In this document: positions 45,179 to 51,343 of the stretch, in pieces
Position numbering within the stretch: the stretch's first letter is position 1
Layout of the letters: each line of letters opens with the position of its first letter
Assembly: GCA_017544265.1 (NCBI GenBank)
Contig: JAFYEM010000034.1
Coordinates: 25,587-89,586, forward strand
Source of the DNA: Bacteroidales bacterium
GTDB taxonomy: Bacteria > Bacteroidota > Bacteroidia > Bacteroidales > UBA932
DNA: 64,000 nucleotides
Reading direction: 5' to 3'
Position numbers and translations under genes: made by a program
Notes under the pieces: generated by a model
Told to the model about the DNA's origin: nothing
What the model saw: the letters and a program-made list of their open reading frames with translations, nothing else
The model's database searches: none

Positions 45179-46420
45179 ATGAAAAAACTCCTACTAATCC
45201 TGACCGCTGCAGCGACTCTGTTCTGCGCTTGCAGCAAAGAGAACACCCCTGCTCCCAAGACTGACGGAAGCCGTCTTGTACGCTTCACCGCCAATGTCGG
45301 CGAGTATTCATTCAAGAGCATCGACGCCCTCGACGCTGCTGACGAAGTAGGTATCTTTGCCGGCGCCCCTATCAGCAAAAACAATGTTCCCCTGGTGGTC
45401 GGCGACGCCAATGCCCTCAGCTACAAGAACAACACAAACACTCTCGAATGGAGCGCTTCCCAGATCGCCCAGGGTACTGCAAACAGCTTCTATGCCTATG
45501 CCCCCTACGACGAGAACAGGACCACGACTGATTTTCCATTCTATGTCTATGAAGACCAGAATACCGAGGCCAATTACAAGGCGTCTGACCTTATGCTCGC
45601 CTCTGCCGCTGACGTGGCTCCCGAAACAAATGTGTCCCTCACCTTCGCCCATGCTCTCACGAAAGTGGTCATCAATGTGACCAGCGCGACTCTCCCCATC
45701 GCTTCCGTGAAGATATGCGGCCTTGACAGCAAGGCAAACGTCGATGTGGTCGCCGGCACCGTGGCCGTTGACGACAATCTCCGCGATATCGACATGTTCT
45801 TCGTCGGCAAGAGCGGCAATGTCTATACCTACGCCGCCATCGTCGTTCCTCAGGCAAACGTCTCGCCTTACATCCTCGTGAAGGCCGGCCAGCCTTACAA
45901 CCTCGAATACAAGTATTCCATTTCTGCCGCCTATACTTTCGTTGCCGGCAAGAAGTCCACGGCTGACGTAACCGTTACCTACAATCCCGGACAGGTATCC
46001 GCAAACGCAGTCGGTTTCGCCTCCTTCACCCAGCCTTCCGCATGGACAGAAGCTGACGACGCTGCTGCATTCGGCGGCGACGGCATCCAGGGCGTGAACA
46101 ACTGGAACCTTATCGGCGACATCCTCGGTTCAAGCTGGAGCGTAGATTTCCCCATGATCGAGGATTCCGCAAACAGCCAGTTCATCATCTCCAATATCAC
46201 CATCGCTCCCGGTGCCAAGTTCAAATTCCGTATCGGTGACAGCTGGACTACAAATTTGGGTGCGAATGAAGCTGTCCCTGTGACAGTCGGAGACGGCAAG
46301 AATATAGCTCTTGTCTCCGACGGCGGAGATATTTCCCTCGCCGACGCCGAGCAGGCATACGACATTTATCTGAAACCGGGTGAGAACCAGGTTTGGATTC
46401 AGCCACATTCCAACAATTAA
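45179..46420 (+). CDS. fimbrillin-like lipoprotein with a C-terminal SusE/SusF-like module
   Basis: 413 residues from ATG 45179; an earlier in-frame ATG (45113) lies in the promoter region and before the signal peptide. Lipobox ATLFCAC with Cys18. The fimbrillin-like (Mfa-like) part covers about 30-270: VRFTANVGEYSFKSIDALD, ADEVGIFA, FYAYAPYD, YKASDLMLAS and LTFAHALTKVVINV. From about 305 a second module, WNLIGDILGSSWSVDFPM then FKFRIGDSWTTNLGA, has the SusE/SusF starch-binding pattern. First gene of a five-gene operon. Sorted to the outer surface if it follows other fimbrillin-like lipoproteins. Confidence 0.8.
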   Translation: MKKLLLILTAAATLFCACSKENTPAPKTDGSRLVRFTANVGEYSFKSIDALDAADEVGIFAGAPISKNNVPLVVGDANALSYKNNTNTLEWSASQIAQGTANSFYAYAPYDENRTTTDFPFYVYEDQNTEANYKASDLMLASAADVAPETNVSLTFAHALTKVVINVTSATLPIASVKICGLDSKANVDVVAGTVAVDDNLRDIDMFFVGKSGNVYTYAAIVVPQANVSPYILVKAGQPYNLEYKYSISAAYTFVAGKKSTADVTVTYNPGQVSANAVGFASFTQPSAWTEADDAAAFGGDGIQGVNNWNLIGDILGSSWSVDFPMIEDSANSQFIISNITIAPGAKFKFRIGDSWTTNLGANEAVPVTVGDGKNIALVSDGGDISLADAEQAYDIYLKPGENQVWIQPHSNN

Positions 46421-46432
46421 TAACCAATAAGT

Positions 46433-48352
46433 ATGAAAAAGATTTTCCTTACCGTACTGGCAGCTGCCGCCCTTTGCGCCTGCTCCAATAAAGAGCAGCT
46501 TCCGCAGAGCGTGAATCCTGCCGCAGGAACCGCGGTCCGTTTCGAGACCAGGACCTATACTCTCAAGTCTTCCGATACCGGCCTTGACAACGGTGACAAG
46601 GTGGGTATCTTCGCCCTCGCGCCTATCAACAGGCAGAATGTCGAAGCTACCGTAGCCGGCACCGCCCTCGAAATAGCGGCCGAGAACACCATCTACTGGG
46701 GCAAAGACCAGACTGAGGAGACCCAGTTCATTGCCTACTATCCTTACGCGGAAGGCCTTGCGCTCAACACCCCCGTACCCTTCGCGGTAAAGGCTGACCA
46801 GAGCTCTGCCGCCAACTATCAGGCATCCGACCTCATGGGCGGCGGCGTCAAGTCGGCACCCAAGACCGAGGCTGTTGTGTTCGAACTCGAGCACAAACTT
46901 TCCAAAGTCGTGGTCAAGGTGGACAACAAAGTCGCGACCGAGACCGTGGCAAGCGTTTCCCTGGACAAGATGATCCTCGACGCCACCCTTACCATCGGCG
47001 AGGATGATTTCGCCATCGGCACCACCGAAGGCATTCAGAAAGCCTTCCGTCCGGATGCCGCCAAGGATGAATTCGAACTCATCGTAATCCCCCAGAGCGC
47101 CCAGCCCAAGCTCGTGGTCACCATGGTAAGCGGAAAGACCTACACCTTCTCCCTTGCTGCCGCCGCGACCTTCAAGCCCGGCAAGAAAGCTACCGCCGAG
47201 GTCGAAATCACCGCCGCAGAACCGTCTGCCTCTCCCGCTTCGTTTTCGTTTTCAGTGAAGAACTGGGATGAGGACAGCGACCCTCTCGCATTTGACAACC
47301 CTGTCGAAGGTCAGGAAGACAATGACTACAAGTGGTCCATCATCGGTCTCTACAATGACTGGGACAACGATATCTATCTCACAAAGGTCGAAAATGAAGA
47401 GACCTGGCAGATTCTCAACTTCGAGGTCACCGCAGCATCTTCCTTCAAATTCCGCTTCAACCACAGCTGGGATGAAACAGAATCCCAGTACACCTACAAT
47501 GACGGCCTCGGCAAGGGCAACCTTGGCGGCGTGTTCGCGGCAAATGCGGATATTCCTCTTGAAATAGACGGAGCCAACATCTCCATCGCCGTGGGCAAGT
47601 ACAACATCTACCTGCACCCGATGGAGAAAACCGCTTACATCCAGGTTCTCGAAGGTGGTGAGGATCCCAACGTATGGCGCGTGGTCGGCCTGAACGGTGA
47701 CTGGGATACTGCGAACGGCGTTGTGATGACAAAGGGTACCTCCGCTGTCAGCGGACTTGAAGAATGGGTTGCGACAATCGCCTATGATCCTGCGACTGAC
47801 GGTTATGGATTCAAGTTCGTACTCAACGACTGGGACAACTACTTCGGCTATGACGGCGGAAACCTCGACGTATCCACCGACTACTACCTTGTAGGCAAGG
47901 CTGATAATGACAATCCGGGCAATATCATAGTCAATGTCGCCGAGCCCGTTAACCTCATCCTTTACTTCCAGCCTTCCGACGGTCATCTCTGGATAGCGCC
48001 CGTAGCGGATCCCGTGGATCCCACGGCATCTGCGGACCTTTACGTCGTAAATACCCATGGCTGGGCATCTCCCGCCATCTGGGCCTGGGGCGCAAATATC
48101 GCCATGCCCGGCGCATGGCCCAATGGTCTTGAACCTGAGGCCGGTACAGTCGAAGTCGGCGGCAAGGAATATATCCACTTCGTGCTCGACGGAACCTATA
48201 TGGGTATCGGCATCGGCTTCCTTGTTTTGGATAAGACCACAGGGGTTCAGACTGCTGACGTAACCAATATAACCATCCAGAACGGCGACAAACTCTATTA
48301 TGAGATCGGAGCCGAGAACGGTGGCAAGTATGAAATTGCACCTGTCCAGTAA
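46433..48352 (+). CDS. fimbrillin-like lipoprotein with two SusE/SusF-like modules and a CBM26-like end
   Basis: 639 residues. Lipid Cys17 (ALCACS). Fimbrillin-like N-terminal half (about 30-265: GDKVGIFALAPI, FIAYYPYAEG, YQASDLMGGG, FELEHKLSKVVVKV). Then a SusE/F-like module at about 300-400 (WSIIGLYNDWDNDIYL, FKFRFNHSWDE), a second at about 415-525 (WRVVGLNGDWDTANGV, FKFVLNDWDNYFGYDGG) and a last one at about 530-635 that resembles CBM26 starch-binding modules (LYVVNTHGWASPAIWAWG, PGAWPNG, VQTADVTNITIQNG). Aromatic residues in these loops are the usual glucan contacts. 12 bases after the previous gene. Confidence 0.78.
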   Translation: MKKIFLTVLAAAALCACSNKEQLPQSVNPAAGTAVRFETRTYTLKSSDTGLDNGDKVGIFALAPINRQNVEATVAGTALEIAAENTIYWGKDQTEETQFIAYYPYAEGLALNTPVPFAVKADQSSAANYQASDLMGGGVKSAPKTEAVVFELEHKLSKVVVKVDNKVATETVASVSLDKMILDATLTIGEDDFAIGTTEGIQKAFRPDAAKDEFELIVIPQSAQPKLVVTMVSGKTYTFSLAAAATFKPGKKATAEVEITAAEPSASPASFSFSVKNWDEDSDPLAFDNPVEGQEDNDYKWSIIGLYNDWDNDIYLTKVENEETWQILNFEVTAASSFKFRFNHSWDETESQYTYNDGLGKGNLGGVFAANADIPLEIDGANISIAVGKYNIYLHPMEKTAYIQVLEGGEDPNVWRVVGLNGDWDTANGVVMTKGTSAVSGLEEWVATIAYDPATDGYGFKFVLNDWDNYFGYDGGNLDVSTDYYLVGKADNDNPGNIIVNVAEPVNLILYFQPSDGHLWIAPVADPVDPTASADLYVVNTHGWASPAIWAWGANIAMPGAWPNGLEPEAGTVEVGGKEYIHFVLDGTYMGIGIGFLVLDKTTGVQTADVTNITIQNGDKLYYEIGAENGGKYEIAPVQ

Positions 48353-48361
48353 AGTCTTTCC

Positions 48362-49234
48362 ATGAAGAAATACCTGACATTATTCTTCGCGGCTGCTCTT
48401 TTCCTTCTGGCGTCCTGCCAGAGGGAGAAGAGGAGCTTCGACGAAATCCTGGACGAAAAACGGGCCCCTGTCGAGTTCACCGCGTCTCTCGGCGCGTTCT
48501 CGACCAAGGCTACCGATTCTTCTTTCGGGGACGGCGATGTCATCGGTATTTTTGCTCTCAATCCTATAGACGCATATAACGTAAGAGCTGTCGTTTCGGC
48601 ATCAGGCGCAGTGTCTCCGCAAAGCCCCGTGCGTTGGGAACTTGTGGAAACTGTTGATTTTATGGCCTATCACCCCTACAACGCCAATCTTTCCGAGCCC
48701 GGTTATTCATTCTCCGTGAACACTGACCAGACAAAATACGAGAACTACCGCGCGAGTGACATTTCGACGGCCTCCATGACCGCCGAATACGGCTCAAAGG
48801 TAAATCTCGAATTCTCGCACAGGCTGTCCAGGCTGACTGTTGACGCCGCCTGCGACGACCCCTCCGACGAGGTGGTCGCGGTCACGCTCGGAAAACTCGT
48901 GGTCAATGTTGAGGTGGACATGGAAGCCGCGTCAGCCTCAGCCGGCACTAAAACAGATTTCATTAAAGCCGGGAAGGCCGTATCCGGAAACGGAAACGTC
49001 GGATATGTAGCCATCCTGGTCCCCCAGAAAATCAATCTCCCGATAGAGATCCGGACCCGTAAGGGATATGTCGTAACCGCGACATTGGATACACCTGCAA
49101 ACTTCGAGGGAGGTTTTGCATATAGAACCAGCCTAATAAGAATTCCCGCAGGGGATATCACCAATCCGGTGTCCTTCTCCGTCACGGTCGCCGACTGGGA
49201 CGACGATGGCATATTAGTCTTTAATACACAATAG
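48362..49234 (+). CDS. fimbrillin-like lipoprotein
   Basis: 290 residues. Lipobox LLASC with Cys19. The Mfa-like pattern is clear: VEFTASLGAFSTKA, GDVIGIFALNPID, FMAYHPYNANL, YRASDISTASM, LEFSHRLSRLTVDA and VAILVPQKINLPIEI. Unlike the two preceding proteins it has no carbohydrate-binding module; it ends soon after VSFSVTVADWDDDG. It may be an anchor or shaft component to their tip-like proteins. Nine-base gaps on either side mark the operon. Confidence 0.82.
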   Translation: MKKYLTLFFAAALFLLASCQREKRSFDEILDEKRAPVEFTASLGAFSTKATDSSFGDGDVIGIFALNPIDAYNVRAVVSASGAVSPQSPVRWELVETVDFMAYHPYNANLSEPGYSFSVNTDQTKYENYRASDISTASMTAEYGSKVNLEFSHRLSRLTVDAACDDPSDEVVAVTLGKLVVNVEVDMEAASASAGTKTDFIKAGKAVSGNGNVGYVAILVPQKINLPIEIRTRKGYVVTATLDTPANFEGGFAYRTSLIRIPAGDITNPVSFSVTVADWDDDGILVFNTQ

Positions 49235-49243
49235 TCACAAGTT

Positions 49244-49861
49244 ATGAAAATCAAAAACATTCTCATTGTGGCGGCGCTGCTTATGTCGGCGGGTGTTGCG
49301 AAGGCCCAGCAACATGTGGCCATAAAAACCAACATCCTGCACGATGCGACGCTCTCGCCCAACATTGCAGTGGAGTACGCCTTCCTTCCTAAGTGGTCGT
49401 TCGAACTCCCGTTCAGTTACAACCAGTGGCCTGGGGTCAAGGACATGATCTACAAGCACGCCATCTTCCAGCCGGCAGTCCGCTACTGGTTCTGCGAAAG
49501 GTTCAACGGCTGGTTCGTAGGCATTCATGGAATCGGCGGCATGGCCACCCTCTCCAACGGTCCCGACTTCAGCCAGTACTATCACAAGTTCCCGAACCTC
49601 AACAACTACAAACTGGAGAAAGCGCTTGTCCTCGGTGGTGGTGTTTCGTTCGGTTACGACGTGTCTCTGGCCCGTCACTGGAACCTCGAATTCGAGCTCG
49701 GACTCGGCTATATCTATGCCAACGGCGACCTCTATGAAATGGTTGACAACGGCGCCGGCAGGAAGGTTCCCCAGAAGAACGCCCTCCCTGTCGTGAAGGA
49801 AGCCGAATTCGATTATGTAGGCCCCACCAAAGCCTCTGTTGCAATTGTCTATATCTTCTAA
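49244..49861 (+). CDS. DUF3575 outer-membrane protein
   Basis: 205 residues with a signal peptide (LIVAALLMSAGVAKAQ). DUF3575 signatures are VAIKTNILHDATLSPNIAVE, FQPAVRYWFCERFNGWFVGIH, and strand-like repeats ending in SVAIVYIF with a terminal Phe. It should form an 8-strand-like barrel. DUF3575 proteins are regular members of Bacteroidales fimbrial loci, next to DUF3868 proteins, which supports the reading of this operon as fimbrial. Confidence 0.88.
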   Translation: MKIKNILIVAALLMSAGVAKAQQHVAIKTNILHDATLSPNIAVEYAFLPKWSFELPFSYNQWPGVKDMIYKHAIFQPAVRYWFCERFNGWFVGIHGIGGMATLSNGPDFSQYYHKFPNLNNYKLEKALVLGGGVSFGYDVSLARHWNLEFELGLGYIYANGDLYEMVDNGAGRKVPQKNALPVVKEAEFDYVGPTKASVAIVYIF

Positions 49862-49876
49862 AAAGTACCGCGAAAC

Positions 49877-51343
49877 ATGAAAAACAGAATTACAGCCGTC
49901 GTCGCAGCCCTCATGGTGGGCGCCGTGGCATTTGCTCAGTCTGTAAAAGTCAACGACGCGGTCCTGGAGCATAACGAAGACCGTCTTGACATTGCCTTCA
50001 ACGTGAATATGGAAGACATTGATCCTTCCGGAAACAATGCCGCCATCCTCATTCCCGTACTCTTTAACGGCAGCGACTCCCTTTCCCTCGCCCCTATCGA
50101 GGTCTATGGCCGCCGCCAGTACATTCACATTCAGCGTGCAGTCCGCGACAGCGAACCCTTCGAGAATGAGAACTACAAGTTCTCCGTAAGGGACATGCCG
50201 GAAAACCTGGAGTATAAGGACACTGTAGCATGGGCCGGCTGGATGGACGGTGCATCTCTGCGTCTGGATGCATGGAAATCCAATTGCTGCGGCAAGGGTT
50301 CCCTGAATCTTGTGGACAAGGGCGAACCTTTCGCAACATACGAGGAGCCCATGCCTCCGATCATTGTCTATACCCCGAACTACATCTGGCTCCACCCGAC
50401 CGCCGAGGCCGTCGTGAAAGAGCGCAGCGTATCGGGCGAGGCCTATGTCGTCTTCCCTTCGGGCAAGAGCGCCGTGGACCCTGCCTACCGCAAGAATTCC
50501 GAAGAACTGCAGAAGATTCGCAACACCATCGACTCTGTCCGCGTGGATCCGGATATCACAATCAAGGAAGTTGTGCTGAAAGGCTATTCTTCTCCTGAAG
50601 GAAAATATTCCAGCAACGAGAAACTCTCCGAGCAGAGGACCGAGGCTATCCGTGAATACGTGAGCGGCCTGTTCGAGATGCCCGAAGATGTGTTCCACGC
50701 AGAGAGTGTCGCCGAGAACTGGGACGGCCTCAGGGCGGAAGTCGCAGCCACCGAGTGGAAGAACCGCGACAAACTGCTTGAGATTATCGACTCCGACCTG
50801 GATCCCGACAAGAAGGAAGCCCGCCTGAAATCCAAGTACCCTAAGGACTGGAAGAAACTCTCCAACGAGATATTCCCCCTGCTGAGGCGTACTGACTACA
50901 AGGTTGGTTTCACTGTCCGCAGCTACACCACCGCCGATGAGATTCGCGAAATCATGCGCACCAAGCCTCAGAACCTGAGTATCAACGAGTTCTTCCTCGC
51001 ATCCGAAGGTTATGCCAGCGGCACCGCCGAATTCAACGAGGTGTTCGCCATCGCCGCCGAGGTCTTCCCGGACGATCCCGTCGCCAATGTCAACGCCGCC
51101 AATGCCGCGATGACTGTGGGCGACCTCGATGGTGCAGAGCGCTATCTCGAACTCGCCGGTGACGATGCCAATGTGCGCTACACCCGTGGCGTGCTTGCCG
51201 CCCTGCGCGACGACATGGAAACCGCCCAGAAGTACTTCGCTTCTGCCGAACTCTCCGGAGTCAAACAGGCCAAAGCTGCACGTGAACTCGTGGAGAGCAT
51301 CATCGCCCAGCGCGCTGAACTTGCCGCCAAGGGCCTTCTGTAG
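49877..51343 (+). CDS. DUF3868/OmpA-like protein with TPR end
   Basis: 488 residues with a signal peptide (ITAVVAALMVGAVAFAQ). An N-terminal DUF3868-type region (KVNDAVLEHNEDRLDIAFNVNM, PVLFNGSDSLSLAPIEVYGRR) is followed by an OmpA-like segment (about 230-330: ITIKEVVLKGYSSPEGKY, SEQRTEAIREYV) that in other proteins contacts peptidoglycan, and by helical TPR-like repeats at about 375-480. It likely anchors or helps assemble the fimbria-like structure. Last gene of the operon, followed by a terminator. Confidence 0.85.
   Translation: MKNRITAVVAALMVGAVAFAQSVKVNDAVLEHNEDRLDIAFNVNMEDIDPSGNNAAILIPVLFNGSDSLSLAPIEVYGRRQYIHIQRAVRDSEPFENENYKFSVRDMPENLEYKDTVAWAGWMDGASLRLDAWKSNCCGKGSLNLVDKGEPFATYEEPMPPIIVYTPNYIWLHPTAEAVVKERSVSGEAYVVFPSGKSAVDPAYRKNSEELQKIRNTIDSVRVDPDITIKEVVLKGYSSPEGKYSSNEKLSEQRTEAIREYVSGLFEMPEDVFHAESVAENWDGLRAEVAATEWKNRDKLLEIIDSDLDPDKKEARLKSKYPKDWKKLSNEIFPLLRRTDYKVGFTVRSYTTADEIREIMRTKPQNLSINEFFLASEGYASGTAEFNEVFAIAAEVFPDDPVANVNAANAAMTVGDLDGAERYLELAGDDANVRYTRGVLAALRDDMETAQKYFASAELSGVKQAKAARELVESIIAQRAELAAKGLL

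Follow-up and report, generated by a model that had tools for sequence, protein, structure and literature searches.

The five-gene operon at positions 45179-51343 on the forward strand of a 64,000-nucleotide stretch of a Bacteroidales bacterium genome (assembly GCA_017544265.1, contig JAFYEM010000034.1; the whole stretch is called the window below) is best read as encoding starch-binding type V-like fimbriae that serve Sus-type starch use. Its first two fimbrillin-like lipoproteins, P1 and P2, carry C-terminal extensions made of X25 modules, the type found in SusE and SusF, and P2 has in addition a module resembling family CBM26; judged by profile comparison, both assignments hold. We consider it likely that the operon specifies a type V-like fimbria, or at least surface fimbrillin lipoproteins, on which P1 and P2 display α-glucan-binding modules, and the fimbriae would probably hold starch grains as the organism's starch-digesting enzymes do. 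The strongest support for this reading comes from relatives: the case for an α-glucan ligand is strengthened because their operons often lie behind SusG-like or other amylase genes of family GH13, and some of the operons beside susC or susD.

The X25-type modules share the motif W-x-(L/I/V)-(I/V)-G followed by FKF, seen as WNLIG, WSIIG and WRVVG; a preliminary description of the operon had given W-x-(I/V)-G with FKFR/FKF, and the real motif is one residue longer. In the six frames of the window (stop-free stretches of at least 60 amino acids (aa), 65,278 aa in all) it occurs three times, precisely in the three X25 modules, and a chance motif was rejected on this ground. Ordinary fimbrillin strands were likewise rejected as an account of the extensions: the Pfam fimbrillin match stops at aa 269 in P1 and aa 278 in P2, and the modules come after. 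That P1 has one such module and P2 two, as first proposed, was borne out by a hidden Markov model (HMM A) grown from P1 and P2, which gathered 152 modules in 66 proteins (near-copies included), and by profiles compared with the PDB. A profile of 28 modules had SusF (4FE9) as its best match (E-value 1.4e-6), followed by 7RPY (7e-4); since this profile contained Sus-type rows beside the fused ones, the search was repeated with fimbrillin-fused rows only (24 modules), and the best match was then 7RPY, at E 9.5e-4. According to excerpts of PMC9112005, 7RPY is the tandem X25 unit of scaffoldin Sca5 with maltotriose bound, X25 modules are also possessed by SusE and SusF, and W620 and W661, conserved between the two Sca5 lobes, contribute to the binding platform. 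Two tryptophan columns are conserved in the 28-module profile, and they align to 7RPY tryptophans 41 residues apart, which is the W620-W661 spacing.

These residues are widely kept: the first tryptophan is present in 90 of 95 fimbrillin-fused modules, the second in 72 and both in 67, and the corresponding counts for Sus-type modules are 48, 68 and 47 of 72. In the module of P1 and the first module of P2 both starch-site tryptophans are kept in both alignments; in the second module of P2, alignment A1 places both, and the HMM alignment only the second tryptophan and the lysine. Some relatives are recognized by Pfam itself: PF13149 (fimbrillin) and PF16411 (SusF_SusE) are both above cut-off in a single chain at L086:6806-9058 and L163:8769-10730, PF22058 (X25) is above cut-off across the A module of L043, and 5 of 30 junction segments match PF16411 when E-values up to 1 are allowed, the best being 1.2e-6.

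The CBM26-like module announced for the end of P2 in the preliminary description is found there as well. A profile of eight modules, all fimbrillin-fused, matched 6B15, the CBM26 pair of Amy13K, at E 3.2e-8, and then Amy4, Amy16 and Amy10 of Ruminococcus bromii; all matches down to E 0.056 are amylases or amylopullulanases. Pfam family PF16738 is below threshold in the fused relatives L080 and L083, and above cut-off over the CBM26-like modules of the L080 amylase (28.5 vs 28.1 bits) and of a SusE-like protein of the operon's own genome (L140:11865-13169, 34.7 bits). The domain search suggested earlier succeeded for PF13149, which matches P1-P3, and gave no direct PF16738 or SusE/F match in P1 or P2.

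The N-terminal halves are fimbrillins: PF13149 scores 113.9 bits in P1 (aa 50-269), 123.0 in P2 (aa 47-278) and 104.7 in P3, against a cut-off of 27, and beyond this match lie 144 aa in P1 and 361 aa in P2 without a Pfam family (hmmscan). A profile of the fimbrillin part matched 4K4K (“putative cell adhesion protein”) at E 1.1e-14, and also the hypothetical proteins 3UFI and 4EPS. The fimbrillin part closes on a conserved tryptophan (W75, consensus D-W) in all 30 aligned junctions. A lipobox cysteine is visible by eye in P1 (FCAC), P2 and P3; LPAM_1 is below threshold for P2 and P3, unlisted for P1, and above cut-off in the relative L083:7069-8997. A K/R-[ASG] pair lies at aa 35-62 in 54 of 54 fimbrillins (one truncated open reading frame (ORF), L089:7754-8890, was left out), a permissive pattern. 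The search of the own genome for a gingipain-type protease (PF01364) gave zero matches, but its control matched nowhere either. In a tree of 107 fimbrillin domains, P3 groups with the extension-free fimbrillins of L080-L085 and L087 and with L155 (support 99/87); P1 and P2 are long branches whose placement is unsupported, so that descent from an amylase-linked operon does not follow from the tree.

Coordinates, gene spacing and gene content all agree with the preliminary description: the boundaries are exact by ORF calling, the gaps are 12, 9, 9 and 15 bases (given earlier as 9-15), and three Mfa-like lipoproteins are followed by a DUF3575 and a DUF3868/OmpA-like gene, the matches of the last, P5, being sub-threshold. 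P1 starts at the methionine of MKKLLL, within a frame open from 45113. No NCBIfam family reached its cut-off in the five proteins. Scans for promoters (9 sites vs 3.7 expected) and terminators (5 sites, all on the reverse strand, vs 6.7 expected) were not used as evidence. The window belongs to contig C15; the genome is a draft of 1.87 Mb in 65 contigs, with a completeness of 90.5%.

Table. Genes and modules of the fimbrillin operon, in window coordinates. Architecture letters here and in the text: F, fimbrillin; A, X25/SusE-SusF-type module; C, CBM26-like module.
Feature	Position	Strand	Length or residues	Basis
P1, fimbrillin-like lipoprotein with one C-terminal X25-type module	45179..46420	+	413 aa	ORF, Pfam
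X25/SusE-F-type module of P1	46100..46399	+	about aa 308-407	HMM A 81 bits; W, K, W present
P2, fimbrillin-like lipoprotein with two X25-type modules and one CBM26-like module	46433..48352	+	639 aa	architecture F-A-A-C (HMMs)
First X25/SusE-F-type module of P2	47330..47641	+	aa 300-403	HMM A 68 bits; both W and K present
Second X25/SusE-F-type module of P2	47672..47995	+	aa 414-521	HMM A 31 bits
CBM26-like module of P2	48038..48307	+	aa 536-625	HMM C 103 bits; own-genome profile search 109.9 bits
P3, fimbrillin-like lipoprotein without extension	48362..49234	+	290 aa	PF13149
P4, DUF3575 protein	49244..49861	+	205 aa	PF12099 154.4 bits, above cut-off
P5, DUF3868/OmpA-like protein	49877..51343	+	488 aa	PF12984 20.2 bits, OmpA 26.2 bits, both sub-threshold

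The fusion recurs, and so does the gene order, as the preliminary description had proposed to check. P2 matched 186 of 400 genomes of the genus (own genome included), among the matches listed mostly through the fimbrillin domain, and a separate search with the fimbrillin-to-module junction gave matches across both halves in at least 29 of the 400 (at least 28 of the 399 others). Five loci (L080-L083, L085) have the order of the window: F-A, then a fimbrillin with both A and C, a plain fimbrillin, DUF3575 and DUF3868; they differ from the window in the architecture of this second protein, F-A-C or F-A-C-A as against F-A-A-C. Six fimbrillins are present in L084, and L093 has one additional gene ahead of the fimbrillins. 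DUF3575 and DUF3868/OmpA partners accompany the fimbrillins in 9 of the 15 loci L080-L094 (DUF3868/OmpA-like genes in the position of P5 at L080-L085, L087, L091 and L093), and 8 of these 9 also have an extension-free fimbrillin. At the level of the order, a junction profile matched 134 of 393 genomes (own included); among the matches listed the junction is spanned in the own genome alone, the rest nearly always matching with the module half only. The module alone is thus widespread, and the fusion looks confined to this genus as far as sampled. With the C-terminal part of P2, 20 of 199 family genomes (own included) matched, and 13 neighbourhoods were taken from the 19 non-own matches: in 12 (L037-L045, L047-L049) SusC-, SusD- and GH13-type genes surround a SusE-like gene with the module, four of them having seeded the SusC/SusD HMMs, and in the thirteenth, L046, the HMMs detected no Sus-type gene and no module A. 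Four of the six SusE-like proteins scanned are SusE by Pfam (PF14292).

Initial scans of genome contigs and of viral contigs with P2 gave no matches. A scan of genome contigs with alignment A5 gave 48 loci; among the 16 examined (L184-L199), 14 have fusions and 10 also GH13. Record titles name rumen or reticulum for 5 of the 14 fusion loci (L184-L197), and 6 others carry RUG names, which we take to stand for rumen genomes. Three records, JAFZOU010000110.1 (L184, water buffalo rumen), JAFUWX010000038.1 (L193, roe deer rumen) and JAFXVX010000017.1 (L194, sheep rumen), show the same arrangements as the fusion loci of the genus search. The rumen is an environment where holding starch grains would matter.

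Upstream of the operon in L080-L085 and L093 lies an amylase of about 1,180-1,210 aa with the architecture A-C-A-GH13; the L084 stretch includes its catalytic end only, and the complete gene can be seen in the named record L187, whose fimbrillin genes are the same. In L295 and L296 this amylase is followed by F-A and plain fimbrillins; L092 and L301 have an A-A-A-GH13 amylase upstream, and L086, L088 and L090 a smaller GH13 gene. By Pfam, GH13, SusG_CBM58 and BACON are above cut-off in the four scanned amylases (L080, L089, which is the L301 locus, L093 and L295), all of which have X25 modules and three of which have CBM26-like modules too; of the L080 and L093 amylases, that of L080 only has SusG_C and CBM26 above cut-off. 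By count, GH13 is found in 14 of 33 fusion loci, always upstream and on the same strand, and in 0 of 27 fimbrillin-only loci (the 20 loci L164-L183, hand-picked lower in the list as controls without fusions, plus L095, L096, L149, L154, L156, L159 and L160). Eleven of these GH13 genes lie no more than 181 bases away, the other three at distances of 507, 1,788 and 2,304 bases, and 11 of the 14 linked amylases carry the same modules as the fimbrillin fusions. The Fisher value of 8.7e-5 for this linkage is descriptive, as the loci were chosen by similarity rank to P2. For the count, L301 replaces L089, a shorter stretch from the same contig. The count excludes the window, L140 and L142, the loci L184-L199, many of which look like contigs already counted, and L298-L300, which have no fimbrillin gene. 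The HMMs for GH13, SusC and SusD rest on 3-5 seeds, and some of these seeds belong to loci in the count. Where all fusions of a locus are shorter than 780 aa, GH13 is found in 14 of 21; among the seven misses, L087, L091, L094 and L297 start about 530 bases or less from a contig end, and L163 has only 916 bases upstream within the fetched stretch.

Purpose-built HMMs found no GH13, SusC or SusD gene in the window, and genome searches with PF07980 (SusD) and PF00128 (GH13) gave zero matches on its contig; a classical polysaccharide utilization locus (PUL) was therefore rejected for the window, having no susC/susD. The earlier statement that no susC/susD pair lies nearby holds for the window and not for every relative: SusC and SusD are found by HMM in L086, SusC in L088 and SusD in L301. 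In L086 and L088, five fimbrillin-module fusions stand between GH13 and SusE/F-like genes with susC, and in L301 the fusions come after susD, SusE-like and amylase genes. The own genome has its SusG-like amylase, with A-C-A modules, on a separate contig, C32 (L140). Around it, at L140 3979-16600, are four GH13-type genes, including this A-C-A-GH13 gene (SusG-like by Pfam) and an A-GH13 gene, and the cluster also encodes a protein with CBM26-like and X25 modules.

Several results weigh against the reading of the operon as starch-binding fimbriae. The direct hmmscan of P1 and P2 against Pfam gave no SusE/F and no CBM26 match, and phmmer found no match for them in the PDB up to E 10; with the direct Pfam scan negative, relatives and profiles were needed for testing the module claim. 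The E-values of the X25 profile limited to fused rows are modest: from E 0.012 its matches are mostly unrelated non-starch chains, and SusF (4FE9) is unlisted at E up to 1. In the CBM26 list, Fic proteins trail the starch enzymes from E 0.067. Excerpts of PMC9112005 state that lone X25 lobes of Sca5 did not bind, the tandem lobes binding only together, and that single SusE/F modules do bind; the single module of P1 may thus be a weak binder, and P2, with two in a row, would be favoured over P1. The operon of the window has no linked amylase, loci with longer fusions have GH13 in 0 of 12 cases, and L155 and L157 are real misses, with no amylase in 6.8 and 5.8 kb upstream. Their genomes (G285 and G411) have an A-C-A-GH13 amylase elsewhere, beside susD in one (L300) and susC/susD in the other (L299). 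Finally, the data do not distinguish a polymer from separate lipoproteins, fibre formation being assumed.

In an alternative that we regard as less likely, no fibre would form: each of P1-P3 would be a surface lipoprotein of its own, its fimbrillin domain merely a spacer that keeps the starch-binding modules at a distance from the membrane, like the N-terminal immunoglobulin (Ig) domains of SusE/SusF. The lipobox of all three proteins agrees with it, as do the spread of modules lacking a fimbrillin through the order, their residence in SusE-like genes near SusC-, SusD- and GH13-type genes in the 12 family neighbourhoods, and the likeness of multi-module fimbrillins (F-A-A-A-A) to SusE/F proteins with a different N-terminus. 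The DUF3575 and DUF3868/OmpA partners speak against it, forming a fimbrial and not a PUL arrangement where they occur (the other six of the 15 loci are without them), and the K/R-[ASG] pair, permissive as it is, is compatible with type V maturation. Starch binding would hold for the fibre and for separate lipoproteins with a fimbrillin spacer alike. It is quite improbable that the modules are structural, or that their ligand is another glycan (mucin, capsule sugars) and not an α-glucan. The lysine and second tryptophan are kept in all three modules of the window, the CBM26 profile finds amylases and amylopullulanases down to the E-value given above, and the operons of relatives are linked to GH13; set against this are the 23 of 95 fused modules in which the second-site tryptophan is absent and the single module of P1. 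Glycogen fits the same sites, so only non-glucan ligands conflict with the reading that we prefer. An artefact of assembly or prediction, or a chance likeness of fimbrillin strands to SusE/F motifs, is suggested by the draft state of the genome and by the lack of a direct Pfam match in the extensions; we hold it to be highly improbable, given the open frames of P1 and P2, the restriction of the motif to the three modules and the repeated finding of the junction across the genus.

If the operon does encode starch-binding fimbriae, P1-P3 would be exported as lipoproteins, in keeping with the lipobox seen in each, and would be located at the surface; trimming at the basic residue and strand exchange, as expected from the type V family, would build the fibre. 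The X25 modules, present on both P1 and P2, would project from the subunits together with the CBM26-like module of P2, and the aromatic residues of these modules, by homology and conservation, would bind α-1,4-glucan chains. A series of many weak sites would keep the cell attached to particles of starch or glycogen; these would be cut by SusG-like amylases that have X25 and CBM26 modules as well, and SusCD systems would import the products. For this cooperation, the shared modules and the gene linkage in relatives are the basis. Tentatively, and with somewhat less confidence than an even chance, we suggest a pilus-borne counterpart of the amylosome: starch-binding fimbriae would be a standing part of the starch machinery of the genus, with X25 and CBM26 modules lined up on a fibre at some distance from the cell, SusG-like amylases on the same granule and fimbrillin genes in places recruited into a Sus locus.

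Compared with known type V fimbriae (FimA/Mfa1 of Porphyromonas gingivalis, Mfa-like proteins of Bacteroides), the PF13149 lipoproteins and the compact operon are the same, whereas the subunits bear C-terminal X25 and CBM26-like modules and an amylase lies upstream in 14 of the 33 fusion loci. With SusE and SusF, P1 and P2 share the X25 module family, the W...K...W signature and lipoprotein anchoring; unlike them, they have a fimbrillin in place of the SusE domain at the N-terminus, and the window is without susC/susD. SusG (a surface α-amylase, GH13 and CBM58) has its likeness in the amylases heading the operons of relatives, the four scanned being SusG-like by Pfam and having X25 modules, while P1 and P2 have no catalytic domain. 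In the R. bromii amylosome (Sas20, Sca5, Amy4/Amy16), X25 and CBM26 are likewise displayed on the cell surface for holding starch (excerpts of PMC9112005), through scaffoldins and dockerins there, whereas here display would be through fimbrillins in a Bacteroidales cell. For the S24-7 family, PMC4936053 reports Mfa-like fimbrial genes and an enrichment of GH13 and CBM26, in the excerpts not joined to each other. Among the papers listed by full-text searches of PubMed Central, no title or opening of an abstract describes a fimbrillin/starch-binding-module fusion, most subscription papers lying outside that library; both halves are of known kinds, and what appears new is their combination and its position next to starch genes. 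Two well-known surface systems of Bacteroidales, type V fimbriae and Sus-type starch capture, are joined in single proteins and in the operons of relatives, and the sequence of these fimbrillins names a testable ligand.

Further copies of the CBM26-like module occur in the own genome, three in number: in the SusG-like amylase and the SusE-like protein of C32 and in a stand-alone lipoprotein of 160 aa on C31. Stand-alone lipoprotein-like genes of 151-161 aa that are mostly CBM26-like module lie at L035 8325-8807 (own C31), L097 6248-6703, L098 5395-5880 and L099 5468-5953; the copies of relatives are about 60% identical to the module of P2, and the own copy 43-44%. The own gene adjoins a GH2 beta-galactosidase-type gene (Pfam), and at the matching position L098 and L099 have a 986-aa gene.

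Other fimbrillins of the genus are longer still. The fimbrillin-like lipoproteins encoded at L144-L153, L158 and L161-L163 reach 780-1480 aa and have very long C-terminal extensions; some include X25 modules, and the one at L149:4735-8121 has a BspA-type leucine-rich repeat region, suggesting that fimbrillins of this genus may carry varied binding domains. At four sites (three in L090, 12859-14042, 7494-9787 and 5663-7484, and one in L092, 8780-10071) the fimbrillin part and the module part are read in different but overlapping frames of the same strand, as would result from indels in the assembly or from broken genes. On contig C16 of the own genome (L036 1397-13774), seven lipoprotein-like genes of 358-536 aa and one of 1146 aa stand on one strand, with three PF13149 matches above cut-off in the locus.

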